A program made the translations under genes and the position numbers. 64,000 bases of DNA from Norana najaformis (lineage: Eukaryota > Annelida > Clitellata > Crassiclitellata > Hormogastridae): positions 22,616,488 to 22,680,487 of the forward strand of contig OZ029917.1 of assembly GCA_964023275.1 (NCBI GenBank), written 5' to 3'. Shown here one piece after another: positions 15,800-61,708 of this stretch. Positions within the stretch are counted from its first letter, which is position 1. Each line of letters starts with the position of its first letter. Under the pieces are notes generated by a model. The model saw only the letters and a list, made by a program, of their open reading frames with translations. It ran no database searches and was not told the DNA's origin.

Positions 15800-17090
15800 G
15801 TATTGTATTGTATTTGATAACTTATGTAGCGCTTCTTACAGAACAAACTACTCAAAGGCGCTTCCAGCATGAGAGCCCCTGGGAAATAAGAACGTCTCTA
15901 AACAACGAGCTGACTGAGCTCTATCAACAACAGTGACCCTTGCACGAAGCGAAAGCGGAAGTTCATTCCATAGAGACGGGCCAACAACAGTAAAAGCCCT
16001 CTGCTGAGCAAGGGAGGACTTAACACGAGGAACAAATAGATCCAGACGATCTAGCGAACGTAAAGGGTGGGATGAGGTACTAGAATGTGGTGGCCGAATA
16101 AGATCACAAAGATATTTTGGCGCCTGGCCCATGCGAGCTCTAATTATCAGTGACAGTAGTTTAAACTGAATACGAGATTGGATAGGGAGCCAATGAAGTT
16201 GCTGAATGATGTAATCAGAGATATCAGAGAAACGAGGAAAACGTGACATTAACGTGGCCGCAGAATTTGGTACTGATTGAAGGGAAGACAGCCGATACTT
16301 AGGCAAACCAGCAAGTACAGAGTTGCAGTAGTCAATGCGACAGCATATCATGGCATGAATCATAGTAGTAAAGACAGAGGAAGAAATAGAACGACGAACA
16401 ACTCTTAAGCGCCTTAATTGGTAGTAACAAGACCGAGTCAAACTAGAGACATGGTTTGCGAAGGTAAGGTTACAGTCAAGTATAACGCCCAGGTTACGAA
16501 CACTAGACGAAAACATAAAATAGGGGAAAGCTTCAGATAAGCAAGAGTAGTCAATCTGAGCGAGACGTTATTTAGAACCAAACCAGATCAACTGAGTCTT
16601 AGCAGGATTAAGGCGAAGACGATTGCAGGACATCCAATGTTGAATATCATGAGTCAGGGCATCAATCTTACCAACAAGAGCAAGCTGCGCAGACGGAGGT
16701 TCCTGAACAAAAGCCTGGACATCATCAGCGTACAAATGACCAACCGCCAAGTGTTTAGAAAAGAGGGAAGGGATATCAGCAGTATACAAAATGTATAAAA
16801 AAGGCCAAGGATCGAGCCCTGGGGAACGCCAATATCAACTTTAATTCAGGATGTACAGAAGTCCCCAAGAATAACCATCTGTGTTCGACCGCTAAGATAA
16901 GAATGAAACCAGTGAAGAGGAGTACCATGGAGGCCAAAAGATAGCTCAAGACGGCGTAACAAAATATTATGATCAACCGTGTCAAAGGCAGCGGAGACAT
17001 GGATCGTCAACATAAAACGGAGCACTGCTACTTGAAATTGAAAGGCCGGCGCATATATCACACACTTAATAACAATAAGAAGACTTAAAT
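15800..17090 (-). pseudogene. L2/CR1-like non-LTR retrotransposon RT, 5'-truncated and frameshifted
   Basis: On the minus strand, in order: AAFDTVDHNILLRRL with a HWFHSYLSGRTQ segment (about 16990-16860), HLYADDVQAF with the catalytic YADD at 16732-16721, RLRLNPAKTQLIWFG, then a 222-codon open stretch (16516-15848) with RNLGVILD, RIDYCNSVLAGLP, LHWLPIQSRIQFK and GPSLWNELPLSLR. This is the classic palm-thumb-tail order of L2/CR1/Jockey-type RT. The 3' end carries a repeat that reads TCAAATACAATACAATAC on the minus strand. At least two frameshifts separate the blocks and the N-terminal endonuclease half is missing. It is among the better-preserved RT fragments in the window. Confidence 0.9.
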
Positions 17091-17529
17091 TGCTTCTCAC
17101 TGTTGCTTTTTGAATACCCTCTGCTTTGTCGGTAAACGGTGGAAACTTACGCCTGCTTGTTACATAAACTAATGCTGATTGTTGCCGGAGTCAACTTAGG
17201 CTTATAGCACATAACAACCGTGTATTGAAAACAGCATCGTTTTTAAAGCATTCGTAGAAGACGACAATTTCAAAGCAGCCATTTAACAATACCGGTTAAT
17301 TCTGCCATATTGTAACTATACTTAGTACACTATCAAATTACATTCGCAGCGCATCAGTTGTCGGTCTTCATACAATGAGGCTCGATTATATTTGGGCTTA
17401 TTTTGTCAAAGAGAAGAGTCTGGATTTTTAAAGACTAGTTCTGTAAATACTCTTATACCAACAAAAGGGTGCTGGCATTTAAGCAATAACCAGTGTAATA
17501 CCGATCACTTCTTGATAACTGTCGAAATG

Positions 17530-17995
17530 TTTAATAGCTGTCCAAAGTTACCTCAAGTGTTTTGACAGTGTCTGATAGAAGAGCAGCAATACCAGAAATG
17601 TCAATGGTGGAATGAACAGGGAAAGGATGCAGCCGTTGGCCCGAGACAAACGTGATCGTCTCAGATTTGTCTGTGTTTGTGGCCAAACCACTGAATGAGA
17701 ACCATGCATGCACAGAAAAGAGACACTCTCAAAGTTGCATGGCTGATCAGTGGGTGACAGAGCAATGTAAGGCTGATTATCTGCTGTAACTGAACTCCAA
17801 AGTGGTTGGCTATGCGGCTGAAGTGAAGATTGTAAACAATACGGGGCCAAGACAGATTCCTGTGAGATACGAGCTGTGTAGAAAGAATAATCAGACTGAG
17901 GAGTGAGCAGTAGCAATACTCACTTGCTGAGACCGATTGCAAAGATAAGAAGTTAACCAGTTTAAAACCGTCCCAGACACACCAGATCTCACATT
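17530..17995 (-). pseudogene. Non-LTR RT palm fragment
   Basis: The minus strand reads TVLNWLTSYLCNRSQQVS, then RISQESVLAPY, then a TADNQPYIALSPTD segment in the place of the YADD box (an Asp is lost), then WFSFSGLATNTDKSETITF and VKTLEVTLD. The order matches RT domains 4-7 of a CR1/L2-type element. It is a separate insertion from 15800-17090, as it repeats the same part of RT. Confidence 0.8.
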
Positions 17996-18529
17996 TCTTT
18001 TGACTGTTGAACTTTAGCTGAGTATTTGCTACAAGATGGGGATTCAGAGGCGGTGGCCTGAGGGGTATCTCGTCTGGCAGCAGTGGGCAGTGGCTTGAGG
18101 GTATTCCTATACTTTATATACATAAACATATATACGCATATATATACAGACACATATATACGTTGAATATACATTATACATATACATCATATATGCATTA
18201 TATATACACAATTACATATGCATATATATTACTGGGTGGGGATCTGGTCCAGGGCCTGTATATTCCCTACTACTTGTAAGTATGCATGGATGTGTGTTTG
18301 TGTGTTGTACCACTTTGGTTGCAAAGTTCTTGTCACATGGCTTTATTCTTGAAATATCAGCAACAGCTTTAAGACAGTTCAAGTGTTAATCCAATTCCAA
18401 GCGTTCGAACGAAAATTCTGGAATATTTATCTTCTTTGCAGAAGTTTTGGGCCTAGGCCTATACTAACAATCAGAATTGTGAATAAAAAAAATTGTTGGT
18501 GAGGGAGCATGTCCGAAGAGGACTTGCCA
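17996..18529. other. Intergenic with TA/CATA-rich stretch
   Basis: Degenerate TATACA sequence at 18115-18230. Otherwise nothing recognised. Confidence 0.5.
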
Positions 18530-18725
18530 CATCCTGACGATATTACTTTGCACCTATTGGAATTCAACCAAGCTTCTCCAACAGTTCATGATTTTTGACC
18601 ACGATTTTGACTTGAAGCGACCATCGACTGATGCCTTGGCCATTATGATAACGGTGCTATAGAAGTCTTTAGATTAGATTAGTTTTGTAACGGCGCTATA
18701 GAAGTCTTTAGATTAGATTAGTTTT
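18530..18725 (+). repeat. Tail family B, copy 3, with duplicated end
   Basis: TTTTGACTTGAAGCGACCAT, CGACTGATGCC and GGTGCTATAGAAGTC lead to a TTTAGATTAGATTAG end. The last ~40 bp (GGCGCTATAGAAGTCTTTAG and its TTAGATTAG end) are present twice in tandem (about 18645-18683 and 18684-18725). Confidence 0.8.
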
Positions 18726-18744
18726 GCACCCGCCAGCACACCTG

Positions 18745-19125
18745 TCCTCAAGACGCCCAATTTGATTGGGGACATGACAGCTATTTCGGTATGGAGGGAC
18801 AAGTGGGTAACAGCGAATGTGAATAACCACTCCCTCGTGGTCTGTCTTCCAGGCCTCACCTTGCCTCGACGACTCTGATCTACGCTTAACCGATTTCGGA
18901 CGGGTTAGGGCTGCTGTGCATACAACCTCGTCAAATTGGTTCAAGCCACCTATCCTTCGCAAATTGGGTCAAGCCAACTGTCCTTCGTACGGCTGTGACG
19001 CACGGCAGATAATGGCACACATTGTCGATGTTTGTCCTCAAACACTCTTCAGTGGCAGACTATTGGCTCTTCATCTCGCTAGTGATGACGCTTGCAACTG
19101 GCTGGGCACGAACTACATGCGCTAG
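18745..19125 (+). pseudogene. Non-LTR retrotransposon C-terminal (zinc-ribbon-like) fragment
   Basis: In broken plus-strand frames: VWRDKW, then NNHSLV, a LPRRL-STLNRFRTG-like segment, SNWFKPPILRKLGQANCPSY, and CDARQIMAHIVDVCPQTLFS, ending about 19125. The order 'NHSLV - LPR..W..LNRFRTG - W - C.CG..QTM.HI...CP' is typical of the C-terminal tail downstream of RT in a common invertebrate retrotransposon group. Stops and frame changes show it is a relic. It directly follows the family B tail. Confidence 0.75.
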
Positions 19126-19134
19126 AAAAAGAAT

Positions 19135-19265
19135 TTCCAAATCGTAATCGTAATCTCAAGATTTCTACAGCGCCCAACGAAAGCTAAGTCGCGGAAACCA
19201 GCTTATTCACAGGCGCTCAGTCAGAACAAAATCGATAGGCAAAAGGGTTCGGTTCCAGGTCAAGA
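19135..19265 (-). repeat. Tail family C, copy 2
   Basis: AATCGTAATCGTAATCTCAA on the plus strand, then TTTCTACAGCGCCC and CCAGCTTATTCACAGGCGCT, complementary to the copies at 4600 and 56840. Confidence 0.7.
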
Positions 19266-20034
19266 TCCAGGAGTCGGGCAGTCAGACAGTCGGACGGCTA
19301 CGGTGGAAGGTGTTTGAAATTGAAGCGAGAAGAGAGATATGGGGAAGAGGAAGAATCAGGATAAGATTTTTGGCCACATCAATGTGATCCGTGTAGAAAT
19401 CGCATGCAGATCGCCTTGTACACATGAGACACCACACTTTCTAAATCTGTGTCGATAGTTGCTTAGCACAGGCTGACGTCCTGCCGCACATGAACAGCGG
19501 AAATGAATTGCACCGGAAGAGATTCTCCAGCCAGAAAGTGAAACAGGCTAAAGGATGCAGAGGGACAAGTAAACGAACGAGTAGAGAGACATGTGCAGGT
19601 GATAATGATGAATGTTCGCTAAGAAATAGATGAGGAGGCAGAGAGGCGGAAGGAGAAAAATAAAGAAAGAGTGGTTGAGATTAAAAAGGAGAGATGAAAA
19701 GCGTATGAAGACGATGAAGATGGATTCGAAGAAAACTGATTTGGAGTGGTGGAGAGAAGGTAAGACAAAATGATACACAGATACTCTGTATCGGCCCCTG
19801 TCTCTGTTCTTCTCTCCTTCTCCTTCTCTTTCTCTCTACATTCAACACATTTAAAGGCAGACTGATAACATAGAAAATGAACGAGACGGATGAAAATCTA
19901 CATTTGGTTTTGTCGACATGACAGATCGTTTTTAATGTATGCCATGAATCACAACGCAAGACGTTTTCGGACAAGTGAAAAGGCGCCTTCTGAATAAACG
20001 GCCTTTTAAAAATGTGCCTTAGACATTATTCCTA
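19266..20034. other. Intergenic, nothing recognised
   Basis: A/G-rich stretch at 19550-19760 gives Phe/Leu/Ser-rich minus-strand frames without motifs. Confidence 0.4.
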
Positions 20035-21630
20035 CCGCCCTTTTAAAAGAATGCTTCGATATCTTGGACCTAATCATCTCATCCTGTGTGAACTTCTCTC
20101 TTGCTGAAGACTGCTTCTCCACCAGTTTTGCTCACGTCATGGTTTATCCTATTATTAGAAAACCATCTCTTTCTCTTGATGATCTATCAAACTATCGCCC
20201 CATCTCTACTCTAAATTTTATTATTAAAATTTTTTAAAAAGTAGTTGCTAATCGTATGAGCTGTCTCACCTCTTGTCCCACAATCTGTACCTTATTTTCC
20301 AATCTGCCTATGGCAAATACCATTCCACTGAAGCTGCACTACTTACCATTCACAAACACATCATTAGCTCCACGGATAAAGGAAAAGTAACTGCTCTCGT
20401 TTCTCCTTGACCTATCTGCTGCGTTTGATATCACTGATCATGATATACTCCTTCACCGTCTTGAACACGGTTCGCTCTGTCTGGTTCCGCTCTCAGTTGG
20501 TTTGCATCTCAAGTACTCAGTCAGTTCGTATAAATCTACTCACTTCTGCCTACGACTCCTCACTCAGTCTACGGACATATGGCATGTTAACAAATGCTTT
20601 ACTTACTTAATTACTCACTTCTGCGCCCAGTGTTCTGAATTGCGGTGTTTCACAAGGTTCTGTATTAGGCTCAGTCCTGTTTACATTATATACCACTCTA
20701 CTCGATTCACAACTTACCGATAGCTCTCTTGACTAGCATTTGTATCCTGATGATACCTAACTCTTCCTGGGTACAAGCCAAGAACTTCGTAAATTTGATT
20801 GCCTCAGTCTGTTCATTTGGGTGGCTTACTTATTAACCGCACTGAATCCTCATGCAGTTTGGGCGCGGTGTTTGATTCCACCATGTCATTTTCTAACCAT
20901 ATTCAGGTTATATGCAGGTCAGCTCAATTTCACATACGGGATATTCGTAGAATCAGATCTATTTTGTCTCAGACGTTCTTAATCCAATTGGCTAATGCAT
21001 TGATTTCCAGCAGACTTGACTATTGTAGCTCAATTTTTATTGGTATCACTAAGGGAGATCTGCAAAAATTAAAAATTGTTCAAAACTCTCTCTCCAGAGC
21101 CATAACAAAGACTCCTAAATATCACCATATTAAGCCAATATTACTTCCTTGCACTGGCTGCCCATTGAGCAAAGAATTCATTTAAAATTTGCCTTGTATT
21201 TTACAAAGTACTAAACTTAAATCAGTCGACCTATCTACGTCCATATTCACCCCTCACACAAATAGATATTGCGCTCGATCAGAGCACACTCTGATTCTTG
21301 CTGTGTATCCCGTATCCGAACAGTGTTTGGCACTCGGCCTTCTCGGTAGATGGTTCAAAGCTTTGGAATTCACTGCCACCAGTTCAGTTCACTTTTTTTT
21401 AATTCTTCGATGTCATTCAGGTCTAAACTAAAGACTCGTCTATTCCGACTTGGTTACCCCCGTAGCCTGCATGGCTTCTGGTTTCTCTGACCTATCGGAA
21501 TTCGACCTAGCTTCTCCAACGGATTATGACTTTGACTGCGATTTTGACTTGAAGCGATCATCGACTGATGCCTAGGGTATTGCGATAACGGCGCTATAGA
21601 AGTCTTTAGACTAGATTGATAGATTGAGAT
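20035..21630 (+). pseudogene. Non-LTR retrotransposon RT plus 3' UTR (tail family B)
   Basis: Plus strand, multiple frames: LSNYRPISTLNFIIKIF, DLSAAFDITDHDILLHRLEH, a GSVLGSVLFTLYTT segment, a YPDDT box at 20743-20754 (Ala to Pro in YADD), SLGAVFDSTMSFSNHIQ, and SRLDYCSSIFIGITKGDLQK with QNSLSRAITKTPKYHHI (within 20799-21185). The 3' UTR at 21525-21621 has TTTTGACTTGAAGCGATCAT and GGCGCTATAGAAGTCTTTAG, and so ties tail family B to this RT type. About five stops or frameshifts make it inactive. Confidence 0.85.
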
Positions 21631-32744: not shown

Positions 32745-33345
32745 TATTGTAATTGTAATTGTAACTTGAGATTTATAAAGCGCCTCTTAGAGGATAAACT
32801 CAACAGAGGTGCTTCCGACCCGAAAAAGTAAAATCACTGTTGAACAGTACAGTCTTCAGGCGCCTGCGGAACACTGAGAGGGGGAGAGAAAGGAGCTCAA
32901 GTCGCAATTCTCGAGGGAGACGATTCCAGCAAGTGGGACCAACGTAGGCAAAGCTTCTGGACTGGGCTGCAGCGGTACGCATGCGAGGGACAAACAGGAG
33001 ATCTTGAGTGGCCGAGCGAAGGTTGCTACGGCCCGGCAACGAGGAGACCAAAGTGCAGAAGTCAATGAGGTAAAGGGGAGCAGAGCCAAGAACACAATTG
33101 CGCGTGAGGGAGAGGATCTTAAAGTGGACAAGCTGCTGGACGGGGAGCCAGTGAAGAGTGTCACGAATATAAGGCCATACTTCGGAATGTCCCCTATGAG
33201 ACGAGCAGCAGAGCTGAGCACAGATTGTAGCTTAGCAGTGTTGGCAAGCGATAGGCCGGTAAAGATGGCGTTCCCAAAGTAACCTGGTGCAAATGAGGGC
33301 ATGGACCAGCGTGGAGATAGCGTGAAAGGAAAGAGTATCTATACA
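32745..33345 (-). pseudogene. Non-LTR RT C-terminus with tail family A
   Basis: Minus strand: YFGNAIFTGLSLANTAKLQS, SSAARLIGDIPKYG, then a frameshift to TQDLLFVPRMRTAAAQSRSF, AYVGPTCWNRLPRELR and FRRRLKTVLF near 32830. The 3' UTR holds GATTTATAAAGCGCCTCTTA (plus-strand reading) and ends in (ATTGTA)n at 32746-32765. This copy links the tail family A core to an L2/CR1-type RT. Confidence 0.85.
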
Positions 33346-33718
33346 TAATTTATTAAATACTTTGAGGCATAGGCCTAACTGATATACAAACTGGTCATTC
33401 CGAGCGGTTCATGGCTCATATTTCTATATTACGTATATACATATATATCGCATTTATTGGATTTATCATCGCTTATGAAGATCAAGCCTTCATCTTTCCT
33501 CCAGACGGTCATTTGTTTTAGTGGGCGATTATAGGCAACGAAGATTTCTACCGCTAAGAGCCTCTCACGGCTGATAAAACAGCTATTTGGAACAAGTGGC
33601 AGTGATACGGAGGAGAGGCAGCTTAAGCAGACACGAGAATTAATCGTATCCGTTTAGAAATTATAAACGATTCAGAAATAACGCAGCAGCCAAAATCTAA
33701 TGCTGAATGACATCAATA

Positions 33719-33811
33719 CAGAATATCTGCTGTATAGTGTCGTTGCATTTGAAGATTGAAGTGGTCTTCAGTCTTCAAATGCAACGCCTCTTTACAGCAG
33801 ATATTATTCTG
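33719..33811. ncRNA. Long hairpin (foldback or miRNA-like)
   Basis: The left arm (33719-33761) and right arm (33766-33811) are near-perfect inverted repeats of 43 and 46 nt around a TGGT loop. The TTGCATTTGAAG/CTTCAAATGCAA core is perfect, with a few internal mismatches, a G:U pair and a 3-nt bulge. Arm length resembles a miRNA precursor, but the 4-nt loop is shorter than usual, so a foldback element is equally possible. Transcription is unknown. Confidence 0.6.
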
Positions 33812-33839
33812 TTACTCGGACTTCACAGACGTACATGCT

Positions 33840-34012
33840 ATTGGAATTGTATTGTAATCAGAAATTTGCATAACGCCGCATCAAGATAAACTGATCAGAG
33901 GCGGCGCTCTTTATCCCGGTTTAAATTATGTTAAAGTTCATAAACAACAAAAAATTCATCAGTTAGCAAACAATGCTCAGATAAGATGATTGATGAGCAC
34001 ATTCACTGCATC
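33840..34012 (+). repeat. Tail family A, long copy 2
   Basis: ATTGTATTGTAATCAGAAAT, ATAACGCCGC, GGCGGCGCTCTT and AAACAATGCTCAGATAAGAT in the same order as at 12092-12330. Confidence 0.6.
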
Positions 34013-34271
34013 TGATACTACAAAAATTATTGTTGAATTTATTAAGCACCACTATCTAATGAATAAGCATCAGTCGATGTCGCTGAGCAATTTGTGTGAA
34101 GCACTTGCTCAAGGTCCTTACACACACTAACCGTCTCAGGGAAGGCTTAAACCCTCACACTTCGCGTTGCAATGCGAGCGCTCAAACCAATCGGCTGCTG
34201 TGTCATACAATAACACACAAAAGCCACACGAACTGTATGGCTGTTGGCAATACTGGTTTTCTTTCATTACC

Positions 34272-34512
34272 AGATAGTTGATGCCTGTGAGGTGTCTGGC
34301 CATGTTAATGTTGGCGATCCGCTGGAGGAGGCATTAAGTTTCCAGTAGTGTATCCTGGTCGAGTGGAATGCAACCATCCACTCGAAGTACGGCAGGGAGA
34401 AAGAGGCCGCGCTTCGTCGGACGCTTTTTACCAGCCTCGCAGCTAAAGATGACGACCCATTCACGGTCCAAAACAAGACCACTATGTCAGTCTTCCAGTC
34501 TTACCCAGCCCA
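34272..34512 (+). pseudogene. Candidate pseudo-exon, unknown family
   Basis: An excellent acceptor-like sequence GGTTTTCTTTCATTACCAG ends at 34271. The following frame reads IVDACEVSGHVNVGDPLEEA, then after one in-frame TAG (34348-34350) NATIHSKYGREKEAALRRTL and VQNKTTMSVFQSYPAQ. It is protein-like in composition. The stop, and the lack of a linked upstream exon, suggest a decayed exon or gene fragment. Confidence 0.3.
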
Positions 34513-34550
34513 GTAGCTATTAGAACATAGGCTGCTATTAGTCATATCAT

Positions 34551-35011
34551 TATGATCCATAGGCCGAGAGCCCGTAGGTGTCCACTGCATGCATTGTCAC
34601 TTGTCTCCACAGTTCCAGATCTTGTGCTGTTCTTATCAAGGCGTGCAAGTCTTGCTTACACCAATCCCTTATATCATCTGTCCACTCCCTGTTAGGTCTT
34701 CCTAGTCTCCCATTTCCGTCCATAATTCCCATCATCAAGCTTTTTATTTTTCTACTGTCATCCATCCTGCATATATGTCCAAACAAGAGTAATTTCCTTC
34801 TCATTATTACTTGTATAAGATCTTCTTTTATGCTCAGTCTTCTTCTGACCTCCGTATTTGTTACCTTCATTGTCCAATTCAGATGTAATATTCGTCTATA
34901 GCAGTACATTTCAAATGCTAATATCTTATCTTTATCCGTCTTTTTGATTGTCCATGCCTCACATGCATACAGAGCTGTGCTGAACACACATGTTTTCAAG
35001 ACATTAGTCAT
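34551..35011 (-). mobile_element. I/Nimb-type non-LTR RT C-terminus, open 153-codon frame
   Basis: The uninterrupted minus-strand frame contains LKTCVFSTALYACEAWTIKK, KILAFEMYCYRRILHLNW, RRKLLLFGHICRMDD, and GRLGRPNREWTDDIRDWCKQ. These match the post-RT C-terminal region (LYGCETWTL - FEMWCWRR - LGHI.R - GRPR..W.DD) of endonuclease-RT proteins widespread in invertebrates. The 5' side is cut at about 35015, typical of target-primed reverse transcription. The absence of stops over the whole retained part suggests a relatively recent insertion. Confidence 0.88.
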
Positions 35012-35337
35012 AAGATGCCTCTAAATGCGCTATATACAGTACATGTTCGATTACTATGAATTAAACTGAATGACATCGGATTACAACACCATCGTAACAT
35101 CGCATTTCATTTCATCTGATTACACTATTCTACTGTGTGAGTGGAAAATGCGACCTCTATAACTGTTACTTATATATAATTACGAATTATTCACCGATAC
35201 AAGAAAATTCAATGAATTTTAATATTGACTGTAACGGCTAACGACTTTTTAAATCTTGGATAGCCCATGCAAACTAGCTTTCAGTGACAGGACAAAAAAT
35301 AAAATCTTTACTCCAAAATAAGAATTTTGAGCTAAAT

Positions 35338-49904: not shown

Positions 49905-50362
49905 GGAGGTAGGGTTTCCAATGCTCATCCAATGCACGCATCAGGTCTACGAGATGTTGCGATCTGGTCTCAGATTTCTGTTGTTCCAGGCTCTCCGTCG
50001 CTCAGAGAGAATCTGAAAAGACGACAGTGGGGCGTATATTAGCGCTGGCGGCCCATTCTACTGCCCTCTGTATGGCCATCATTTCTGCCGCCAGGACTGA
50101 TGAGCCGTCGCTCATCCGGTAGCTTCCATGGTGGTTAAAAGACGGCACATAGAAGGAACATGATAGTTTACCTATAGTGCTCTTCAACCCATCTGTATAG
50201 ACAGCCACTTGCCCCTTGTAAGTTTGGATGTGCCTTTTCTGCCACAGCTCTCGTTCTAGGAAGGTTGTCTGTGAGTCTGACTCCTGAGGGTTGTACCCGT
50301 ACCCTATGATGGACGGGTAAATTTGCCAGGGTGGTTTAGTAGAGCAGATGAGACCTGCCGTC
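49905..50362 (-). pseudogene. Retrotransposon RNase H domain
   Basis: The minus strand reads GLICSTKPPWQIYPSIIGYG, ESDSQTTFLERELWQKRHIQ, VAVYTDGLKSTIGKLSCSFY, SDGSSVLAAEMMAIQRAVEW and PTVVFSDSL, then a stop (50002-50004), after which other frames continue (ESLEQQKSETRSQHLVDLMR-like). The Asp of YTDG, the Glu of AAEMMAI and the Asp of FSDS are the D-E-D of the RNase H active site. This domain lies after RT in I/R-type non-LTR elements. No upstream RT remains. Confidence 0.82.
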
Positions 50363-50499
50363 GGTTGTGAGTGGAGAAGACCGATGAGTCATTGGTTGTT
50401 AGATCCAGAAAGAGCACGTCCCAGACTAACAGAAGCTATTTATGAAGAGTATCCACAGAGGTCTCACTACCTTAACTCCGCCACTTCCTTGTTTGGAGG

Positions 50500-58045: not shown

Positions 58046-58285
58046 TCAATTCTTTAGTGCGACAAGCAACGTCCGTATCAGTTCTTCTCGTATCAAGCCT
58101 TCCTCTGAAAGTGGTTTCGGATTTGGAAATCGAAACTCAAAGTCTGTTAGTGGATCGCACGTGAACCAGTAAACAAAGTACGACCTCATTATTTCATGAA
58201 AAACCGACATAGGAGTCGAATCTTTAGCTCTTGCTTCATATCTTGCCATTTCCTCGACGTCCCTTTCGTTCCGACAACCAGCCCC
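58046..58285 (-). other. Alternative C-terminal reading frame of the ankyrin-cGLR gene
   Basis: A second minus-strand frame is open from 58438 to the TGA at 58046. Beyond the homopolymers CCCC (58282-58285) and AAAA (58287-58290) it reads like protein: GCRNERDVEEMARYEARAKD, then STPMSVFHEIMRSYFVYWFT and PKPLSEEGLIREELIRTLL. The main frame over the same bases reads TKGTSRKWQDMKQELKI and stops at 58189. A one-base indel in either homopolymer, in the genome or the assembly, would move translation from one to the other. I cannot tell which end is real. Confidence 0.45.
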
Positions 58286-61200
58286 GAAAAGTTGCAGATG
58301 CGTTGTTTTAGAATTTGGCGGTAATGTTTCATCTGTAGCGAACGGATAAAAGGCAGATGAAATGTTGGCATAAAGTAGCACGGAATGTGGTCCTCGAGAC
58401 TGAACTGCAGGAAACATAGTAGTATTATTCGTTCCCACACACGTAGATCTCGTGCATTAATCCTTTTGGAGGTAAGGTTTATGTCACCTGCGGCCTCGAT
58501 GCAGTAGAGGAGAGCCGTCTTGAGAGCGTATGATTGTTGTGATTCGCCAACAATCTGCTTCGCAACCATGTAAGCTGCCTTGGCAATCGGCTGACTGTCT
58601 GCGATCAACCGACTTTCCGCTGGTCCGAAGGAGATCCGTGCAGTGGCAGAAATGGAGAACGGAACCCAGGGATATTTTCTGTGCGGACACTCAATCACCA
58701 GGTTGCAACCACCTTCGGCTTTGTATGCAAGTCTGACATTCTGCAACGCGTCTTCGGGCCACCAGCCATCGACGTGAAAACACGGCACAATGTCGACTGA
58801 TATCTTTCGAAAGATGTGCCTACCTTCTATGGCCTTGTTCAGTATTAGTTTCAAATTCCGGCAAATTGTACCCGGATTAATTAAGTAGAACTGCCACACT
58901 TCTGTGACATCTAGCCGGAAGATCGGTTCGTTTACCCAGAAGTTTGTCTGACTTAAGACGTCTAGGAGAGTCAGGCAGAACTCTCGACTCACGTCGTAAG
59001 TCTTAAGAATGCCGTCTCTGTCAAAGAATTCATCGACACTTTCATCCGTTCTGCCACTTTCTTCGGCTCGAGCATAAATACATGTTTTCCTTTCTCTGGA
59101 TCGCTCATATCTCCAGTCTTTTAGTGAAGAACCACCTCTGTCATCATAGAAATAATCTTTCTTTAGACCTTCATTTCTTGCATATACGAGATCCTTACTG
59201 TCTTTCAGTCGTCTCCGCTTTCAGATAAACGAACCCTTTAGGAACAACTGGCGATGCAGCAACGTAGCACAGTTTGCTGAACTTCGTTAGAACGATATCG
59301 AAGTCGAATTCATCCGGGCAGTGTGTCTTCGTTTCTTCTAAGGCGCTTCCTATTAGTACCGATTTGCCTTCGAACCTCGGATCCTGCTTTCCGATTGCGA
59401 ACAGTAATCGGTCTATGAAACGACAGATTTCCTGGCGGATCCCTATGTCATGCAACGTCGCGATACGCGTAATCACACTCACTCCAGATCTTCCATACGG
59501 CCTCCTGGGCGCAGAAGTTTGATTCGAACGAGTGCAGAACGTTTTTTTGCATTGGCCCAGCAAGGAAGACGATTGCGAATAGCCGATAATGCCTCTGAGC
59601 AGAAGCCTTACGGGTTCTTTGAAGTATTTCTGGAGTTTGCCAAATCGTTCTGTTTTGAAAGTTTTCATTATCTGTGCACTTTCTCTGTCGGTCTGTCTCA
59701 TCTGCATCATCTCACTCGGTTCCAGGCCATCGGAGTCTCTGACCCGTTCATTTTTGGTGTGCTGCAAAAGCAAATCGTAAACATTTATCGTCTTTGCATA
59801 GTGCAGCGGTATTCGTCCGTATCTATCTGTCGCATTGCAATCTGACCCAGCTTCCAGAAAGTATCTAACTTTACCGACGAGTCCAACTTCAGCGGCATAG
59901 TGTAACGGAATTCCACCACAATCGTCGGGAGTGTTGACCAAATCTCGCAGCTGGATCTTGTCGTTGGGCTTAATTCGTTTGGCTAACTGCATTAGGCTTT
60001 GTTTGTCAGTAACGTTGAAGTGCTTGTTGCAGTATGTATGCAGCGGAGTTCTTCCGCGCTTGTCTTTGACCAGAAAAAACTCCACCTTAAAAGTCTCCGA
60101 CGCTAAAATATGTTTAAGATTAGCAGCGGTAGTTAAGTGCAGCGGCGTATGACCAAACCTATTTTGAACCGTCAAGTCCCCTCCGTTCCTGAGTCGAAAG
60201 TCTACCATGGACCCTGTCCTTGTGCAGACCGTCAAAGCTTTACAGGCGACCGCATAGTGTAGGCGAGTATTGTTCAGAAAGTCGATCGGATGGTTGGATT
60301 CTTGGGGGCTGCTCCATCCGCAGATTCTTCCAATTCGTGCGCTCAGCTTCCGCTGCAGTGGAAGCCTGGACAGCAACGCTTCCCAGTAATACATTGAACT
60401 CGTCAGTGTCCCGCACGCAACCCTTTGCAGATCGGCTCCGCGCTGCACGAGAAAGTCAACTGCGTCCTTATGACGAGTGTTGCGCCCAACACGAGACATT
60501 ACGATATGTAAAGGAGTCTGGCCTATACTGTCCTGGGCATTTATGTCGGCACCTCCATCAAGCAGTAGTTGCATGATCTGCAAGTTTACAGGATTGTTGT
60601 TCGCAACATGGTGAAGTGGAGTCCTACCATAGAAGTTTAAGGCGTTTACGTTAGCGCATCCACTCTTGATCAGCAACTCAACAACTTTGAAATGGTTGCT
60701 ATATGCGGACTTTTTCCCTTCTGGCCTCTGCCCGATAACGGCATCGTGTAACGCGGTGTTACCAAGATTGTCGTAGGCATCAACGCTGGCTCCGCTCGTT
60801 ATCAGCTTTTCCACGATTGCGCTGTAGCCCCACTGGGCTGCGAATGTCAGAGCAGTTCCTCCATTTCTGTGGAGACATTTCGCATCGATGTCTGAGTTAC
60901 CATGATTGAGCAGCGCAGCAACAGAGTCAATGCTGTTGTTCACAGATGCTTTCATAAGTGGAGTGAATGCGGTATGTTCCATTTTGCGTATATTTGCACC
61001 TCCCTGTAGCAGCATCTTTATCGCATGTTCACGGTTATGACAAGCAGCATAGTGCAACGGTGTTACTCCGTAGGCATCTTGCACGTTGACGTCGGTGTCG
61101 GCATGATCCAAGAGAAGTTTGATGATATCACAGAACCCCTTCTCAGCTGCAATGTGCAGACCTACAAAGCCAGCCTTTGGGTTCGTTATATTCACTTTTG

Positions 61201-61633
61201 CCCCAGCGTTTAGGAGACATCTATCCAATTCACTCGTGTTGTTGATGATCGCAGTGATTAGTGGCGCCTTCTGGTGAACGTCGACCATATCGATGTCAGC
61301 TTCACGGTCTATGAGTAATTCGACAATCGAAGAGTGACCTTTGGCTGTCCCAAGATGCAGAGCAGTTCTTCCTTCGTTATCCCTGGCATCAACATCTACC
61401 TTGGTCGTGTGTGCCAGTAGCGCCGACACTGCGCTGTCGTGTCCTCTTTCCGATGCCAGCATCAGTGGAGTCCTTCCATTCGACGAACGTACACTGACTG
61501 ATGCTCCCTGCCTCAGCAGTCCAGCAACGGTCTCATGGTCGCCTACGAATGCAGCCCAGTGCAACGGCGTCCAGGTGTGTTCGTCCGCATCTCCACCAGA
61601 CCCTGCGGTGGATTGAAGAGCACGATCATCCAT
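58189..61633 (-). CDS. Ankyrin-repeat cGAS-like receptor (cGLR), Mab-21/cGAS nucleotidyltransferase
   Basis: Predicted intracellular sensor that makes a cyclic dinucleotide-type messenger. CDS joins 61633-59199 and 59137-58189 (1127 residues; stop in 58189-58191). About 16 ankyrin repeats span residues 20-636 (GRTPLH-type starts near 53, 88, 188, 336, 371, 494, 527, 573, 606), broken by a non-ankyrin stretch at 409-453. The enzyme domain starts near 660: G762-S763, then E775-F-D777 exactly 12 residues after S763, as in human cGAS (S213, E225, D227). D927 in KISVDIV matches cGAS D319; RISFGPAE (R979, S981, E986) and SYALKTA (Y1015, K1018) match RLSFSHIE and SYHVKTA. No Cys/His cluster replaces the vertebrate zinc ribbon, as in other invertebrate cGLRs. 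Start: GCGATGG context with an in-frame upstream TGA. Fold and active site are well supported; ligand and product are inference. Confidence 0.9.
59138..59198 (-). other. 61-nt intron in the ankyrin-cGLR gene
   Basis: Without splicing, the first frame ends at TAA (59195-59197) while the nucleotidyltransferase continues in the next frame. The donor CA|GTAAGG and acceptor TATGATGACAG|A remove 61 nt in phase 2, and the joined CDS (2435 + 949 nt) is exactly divisible by three. A TCTAAAG branch-point-like sequence lies about 25 nt before the acceptor. A second acceptor TTCTTTGACAG|A (exon from 59017) has the same phase and would skip 40 more residues. A frameshift mutation is the alternative explanation. 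Confidence 0.7.
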
Positions 61634-61708
61634 CGCTATTCCATTGTGCTCGCATAAAGTAACAATGTTGCTTGGATATGCTTCAGAGCTTCACGCGATC
61701 AGACTTTC
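61634..61708 (-). promoter_or_regulatory. 5' UTR exon segment with strong splice acceptor
   Basis: On the minus strand, GGTTTTATTTCTGTCTTACAG ends at 61709, a near-ideal pyrimidine tract and acceptor. The exon then has 75 nt before the ATG, with an in-frame TGA six codons in. This implies at least one upstream non-coding exon, not located in 61.7-64 kb. Minus-strand donor-like GTAAGC near 62152 and GTAAGG near 61836 are possible but unproven partners. Confidence 0.65.
61636..61655 (-). promoter_or_regulatory. Two short upstream ORFs before the cGLR start
   Basis: uORF1 starts at 61655 (ATGCGA) and ends with TGA at 61628-61626, overlapping the main ATG in another frame (9 residues, MRAQWNSDG). 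uORF2 is the two-codon ATG-GAA-TAG at 61644-61636, ending two nt before the main ATG at 61633. Such uORFs usually reduce translation of the main frame; that is an inference here. Confidence 0.6.

Follow-up and report, generated by a model that had tools for sequence, protein, structure and literature searches.

Does the minus strand of the window, by which we mean the whole 64,000-nt stretch of DNA analysed here (C5:22616488-22680487 of a 608-Mb assembly of 17 contigs), encode a working enzyme? From 61633 to about 58046 it carries an ankyrin array fused to a Mab-21/cGAS-like nucleotidyltransferase (NTase) domain, and an earlier note on this DNA had taken that NTase to be intact, spaced as in cGAS and enzymatically competent. 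The fusion is real. The locus as a whole we read, with a probability of roughly three in four, as a solitary member, broken in frame and probably pseudogenised, of a family that has expanded in this genome. Sequence shows the fusion and its four frame changes and, elsewhere in the genome, paralogues with unbroken frames and STING-like genes; judged from their sequences, the family members are mostly encoded in single long open frames, with the ankyrin array fused to a Mab-21/cGAS-like NTase as here.

Paralogue profile and frame control

A profile hidden Markov model (HMM) was built from 24 same-genome paralogue ORFs, selected for presence of the NTase motif, and was run on the window's three frames. 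The frame control comprised 28 paralogue loci, aligned at a frame-change penalty of 12 bits with each locus excluded from its own profile. Two loci with no motif-bearing ORF of at least 480 aa (L021 and L025) and two in which the motif is missing (L035 and L036) were kept out of the 24-ORF profile and of alignment A1; the frame control included all four, and the Pfam scan of 26 ORFs took in L035 and L036. Outside the control lay L001-L008, L039-L046 and L051-L072; the handles L009 and L010 denote the window itself, and L047-L050 stand in for L011-L014.

The locus and its domains

ORF 1 (stop to stop, 59195-61690, 831 aa) has an ATG at 61633, ends at a TAA (59197-59195) and contains the ankyrin array, a linker and the first part of the NTase. 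The array, whose outer limits are approximate, spans 59714-61585 with 16 TPLH-type repeat cores, the first at residue 22 and the last at residue 608; a motif scan found 14 of these, and TPLMKAS and TALTFAA were added by eye from the translation. All 16 repeats share one frame. A local ankyrin HMM gave 14 matches, some of them weak, every one in the ORF 1 frame, and the read-through protein matched Pfam Ank at E 2.4e-73. The Pfam Mab-21 NTase model (PF03281) scored 29.2 bits on the spliced NTase and 25.9 bits on the read-through protein, both above the curated cut-off of 24.1. The earlier note's description of about 16 ankyrin repeats joined to a Mab-21/cGAS domain is confirmed.

The NTase middle and C-terminal part lie in ORF 2 (58189-59220), in a different frame from ORF 1, so that no single frame covers the enzyme. 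The GS motif (G762 and S763, 59345-59350) and the first catalytic acids, E775 and D777 of EFD (59303-59311), both numbered on the spliced translation, are in ORF 1; the third acid, D927 (58794-58792), is in ORF 2 together with RISF...E and SYALKTA. These residues stand where the earlier note had placed them, with one silent proviso. Removal of a 61-nt GT-AG segment (59198-59138) gives a protein of 1127 aa with exactly the E775, D777 and D927 numbering, and the note's protein therefore depends on this splice, which it did not mention. Without the splice, translation ends about eight residues past the frame change near 59218, upstream of D927.

By itself ORF 2 reaches 16.8 bits with the Mab-21 model, below the cut-off, and as sole query it had no match in a PDB search; with the spliced NTase as query, cGAS was the only match (E 0.099). 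An Rfam search gave nothing at gathering scores, and ten other window ORFs had no Pfam match at E 0.01. By eye, ORF pieces at 15848-21185, 32800-35020 and 50002-50388 resemble retrotransposon reverse transcriptase or RNase H, and those of them that were tried had no Pfam match at E 0.01.

Frame changes in the linker and enzyme

The HMM meets the window copy in successive pieces. Frame 0 holds the end of the ankyrin half and the NTase as far as its FVYL strand (175.9 bits), frame 1 the NTase middle (296.9 bits, ORF 2), and frame 2 a conserved pre-NTase segment, AVWKIWSECDYAYRD (7.6 bits, E 1.3e-04); frame 0 returns for a family-conserved C-terminal tail (MRSYFVYW...PNPKPL, 58067-58190; 10.1 bits, E 2.2e-05). 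This tail lies beyond the end of the protein in the earlier note, in the frame of ORF 1 and within an open frame at 58456-58046.

Frame-aware alignment at penalties of 9, 12 and 15 bits places four frame changes in the linker-enzyme half, near 59505, 59450, 59218 and 58190. Changes 1 and 2 bound a family-conserved segment at 59450-59505, EAVWKIWSECDYAYRDV, whose frame differs from that of the flanking ORF 1; change 3 is just upstream of the 61-nt segment, and change 4 precedes the tail. At 6 bits two additional changes appear, near 58098 and 58088; at 20 bits change 4 drops out; at 25 and 30 bits changes 1 and 2 are gone as well and the one near 59218 alone remains. No in-frame stop was called in the aligned path at penalties from 9 to 30.

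In its +2 frame the segment 59504-59450 resembles paralogue linkers, the observed sum of scores being reached by 0 of 300 shuffles and the best score by 14 of 300; in the ORF 1 frame there is no match (56 and 230 of 300), these shuffle tests being several on one data set and uncorrected. Codon-usage scoring favours the +2 frame around 59600-59450. It does not favour the frame assigned to the tail (58190-58067), which counts against change 4.

In the control, 23 of the 28 paralogue loci had no frame event, although for many of the controls the profile contains closer relatives than it does for the window copy; events occurred in L021, L022, L025, L031 and L038. The divergent L047, L049, L050, L016 and L019 were among those without one. 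The window copy's description as intact does not survive these results, and neither one frame nor a supported splice joins its GS motif, three acids, C-terminal bundle and tail.

Candidate introns

For change 1, a 107-nt candidate (59611-59505, GTAAGG...CAG) fits in phase, but the frame it enters hits a TGA before the NTase, so the gene is not rescued. In none of the three frames does the peptide inside this candidate show clear homology (best scores reached by 297, 67 and 60 of 300 shuffles). For change 2, the sole candidate from a script search (59480-59400) would delete the conserved YAYRD, as would a 40-nt GTGAGT...AG segment found by eye (59482-59443). Four candidates for change 4, with GTTCGC or GTCGAG donors, were rejected as poor. 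Introns thus do not appear to rescue the gene, since changes 2 and 4 lack a usable candidate and the 61-nt segment addresses only one change. Two peptides at 59220-59040, KDLVYARNE and RKTCIYARAEE, look like variants of a single L047 loop, which hints at an internal duplication.

Relatives in the same genome

The spliced NTase had 96 matches in the same genome, as had been proposed as a search for paralogues. Merging those within 3 kb of one another leaves 48 loci, of which contig C17 carries 36 and C11 carries 11, the window copy being alone on C5. In 32 of the 47 related loci one uninterrupted frame runs for 900 aa or more, taking lengths as given by the search tool, the domain scan having covered part of them. 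Of 26 paralogue ORFs scanned, most of which are truncated where the locus ends, each of the two models, Ank and Mab-21, matches 24 at E 0.01. The best-scoring relative besides the window itself is L047 on C17, at 45% identity.

The search for STING, also proposed earlier, was likewise productive. Twelve STING_LBD matches exceed the cut-off; we interpret them as six pairs of exons, five of them on C3 (48.636-48.746 Mb) and one on C17 (6.05 Mb), with gaps of about 394-2619 nt between the exon matches, by subtraction. Mab-21 matches over the cut-off number at least 150, all 150 of the scored candidates (of 247 at first look) passing; many are clustered, with open frames of about 700 or 950 aa (C1, C2, C8 and others).

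Active site and classification

The 24 paralogue NTases, selected as they were for motif presence, are invariant in the G, the S and acids 2 and 3; acid 1 is E in 15 of them and D in the other 9. GS is preceded by I in 12, V in 10, T in 1 and M in 1, and acids 2 and 3 are 124-151 residues apart. The window copy has I in that position, and its step from D777 to D927 is 150 residues in the spliced reading; in human cGAS the step from D227 to D319 is 92. The cGAS spacing stated in the earlier note is not confirmed. The motif of animal cGLRs in Li et al. 2023 (PMC9980059) is h[QT]GS X8-20 [DE]h[DE]h X50-90 h[DE]h; the window copy departs from it, having neither Q nor T before GS and a step of 150 in place of 50-90, while the catalytic G, S and acids themselves are present. 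Because of the I or V before GS and an acid step longer than in this printed motif, we call the family Mab-21/cGAS-like NTases and do not file it as cGLR under the printed rule; it may nonetheless work in a cGLR-like manner. Over core and bundle the paralogue family aligns with other Mab-21 proteins of the genome, and the window's pieces align to the same profile across different frames.

A structure predicted for L047 (pLDDT 74.0, pTM 0.79) places acids 93 and 95 in the strand 93-100 and acid 229 in the strand 225-237. In L035 (C17:9670286-9671035) and L036 (C17:10089300-10090061), with open frames of 959 and 989 aa, N replaces the second catalytic acid; these may be pseudo-enzymes retained for another role.

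The ankyrin-cGAS-like fusion is of a kind already published. Ankyrin-fused cGLRs are listed in Li et al. 2023 (PMC9980059), along with bivalves having >200 cGLRs; to these the family is alike in joining ankyrin repeats to a cGAS-like NTase and in large cGLR and STING repertoires per genome. It differs in that the window copy is frame-broken, that 22 of the 24 paralogues carry I or V ahead of GS, and that acids 2 and 3 stand farther apart than in the printed motif. The 24-paralogue profile matches cGAS at E 4.9e-08 and cGAS-like receptor 1 at E 6.2e-08 (PDB 7lz3 and 8gjy); the matches cover the region of GS...EFD and, more weakly, the C-terminal part. These solved chains (362 and 376 aa) are without an ankyrin array, unlike the window family. 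A profile-profile comparison aligns the family with 20 Mab-21 proteins encoded elsewhere in this genome (C1, C2, C3, C4, C7, C8 and C10); the alignment spans 264 columns between GS and the C-terminal bundle, with a probability of 98.2 (E 3.5e-14). All 20 of the 20 such ORFs scanned match both Mab-21 and Mab-21_C and none matches an ankyrin model (E 0.01), whereas the 26 ankyrin-family ORFs have no Mab-21_C match. No biochemical study of an ankyrin-fused cGLR was found among titles and abstract openings in the open literature, a scope that leaves most subscription papers outside.

Divergence and constraint

Median dN/dS on C11 is 0.745 for the ankyrin half and 0.46 for the NTase half (28 of 36 pairs, those with dS <1.5 in both halves and >100 ankyrin codons); in the second C17 clade the medians are 0.80 and 0.66 (45 of 55 pairs), the pairs being non-independent and the ankyrin half taking in the linker. 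Single pairs go in the opposite direction, such as L015-L023 (ankyrin 0.77, NTase 0.80) and L028-L032 (0.57, 0.66). The ankyrin half thus tends to diverge faster than the enzyme half in most of the intact paralogue pairs compared. This makes the earlier suggestion that the array reads a protein ligand a reasonable one, the binding itself being conjecture.

The window copy keeps 27 of 29 residues that are invariant in the 24 paralogues; in the same test L047 keeps 29 of 34 and L049 29 of 32. Its end branch is 1.12 without the garbled parts (1.52 with them), against 0.74 for L047 and 0.77 for L049. Since its share of invariant residues is no worse than in these intact divergent relatives, any loss would be recent, and the sequence fits a recent loss.

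Alternative explanations

In favour of a broken window copy are NTase pieces lying in three frames, when 23 of 28 control loci are without events and 32 of 47 related loci are open for at least 900 aa, together with the +2-frame likeness of 59504-59450 to paralogue linkers and the longer end branch. Weighing against this reading are the clean ankyrin frame, the lack of any called stop and the 27 invariant residues kept, as well as the loss of changes 1-2 and 4 at higher penalties, the two additional changes at 6 bits, the codon usage of the tail and the controls' closer relatives in the profile. The absence of called internal stops also speaks for a gene intact in the animal whose frame changes are assembly errors, as does the position of an A7 run near 59545 and of T4/G4 near 58288, each not far from a change (1 and 4, respectively). 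Changes 2 and 3 are at no such run, however, and the eventless control loci come from the same assembly; we regard this explanation as improbable. A working two-exon gene, in which 59198-59138 is spliced out and the 1127-aa protein is made, seems to us a similarly long shot. In its favour, the phase suits the GTAAGG donor and the CAG acceptor, and the Mab-21 match is in one stretch for the 464-aa spliced NTase (29.2 bits) as against two for the 1147-aa read-through (25.9 bits), queries that differ in length. But of 291 arbitrary 193-nt stretches taken from the window, 44 contain a GTRAG...AG pair of right phase and at least 40 nt, and 61 nt is short beside the gaps between the STING exons. The reading frame that runs into the segment (59220-59138) is similar to the coding sequence of L047, its best score being reached by 0 of 300 shuffles, although the sum for the paralogues together (158 of 300) gives no sign of similarity beyond L047; the stretch after the segment also resembles L047 (best 6 of 300, sum 168). 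This likeness inside and after the segment makes homology lean against an intron, short of settling the matter. The unbroken paralogues need no such intron, and changes 1, 2 and 4 would be left unexplained.

A broken copy might still have a use. A truncated product, comprising the ankyrin array and an incomplete NTase, could be expressed and retained to act on the intact enzymes as regulator or decoy: the 831 aa of ORF 1 are uninterrupted and include every detected ankyrin repeat in frame. The best-scoring relative is only 45% identical, and we think this role very unlikely. On the preferred reading, that of a pseudogenised copy, the four frame changes separate the parts of the enzyme, and the earlier expectation of enzymatic competence is not supported; the locus would probably fail to yield a complete enzyme and produce, at most, the ankyrin repeats with a portion of an NTase.

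Meaning for the family

The claim of an intact enzyme at this locus is hereby corrected, and the intact C11 and C17 arrays become the more interesting object. In their unbroken members the ankyrin array would bind a protein or pathogen ligand, which would let the enzyme make a cyclic dinucleotide to be read by STING. Tentatively, and with more doubt than belief, we propose that these arrays are rapidly renewed, ankyrin-gated second-messenger synthases. Their ankyrin halves would diversify to recognise different protein ligands, and a conserved enzyme half would signal to several STING proteins; the window gene would have fallen out of this birth-and-death process. With unbroken ankyrin-cGAS-like arrays and STING-like genes in one genome, this worm offers a direct test ground for ankyrin-mediated protein sensing. 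If the proposal were true, the C11 and C17 arrays would be a cyclic-nucleotide counterpart of NLR arrays, with dozens of single-frame receptors.
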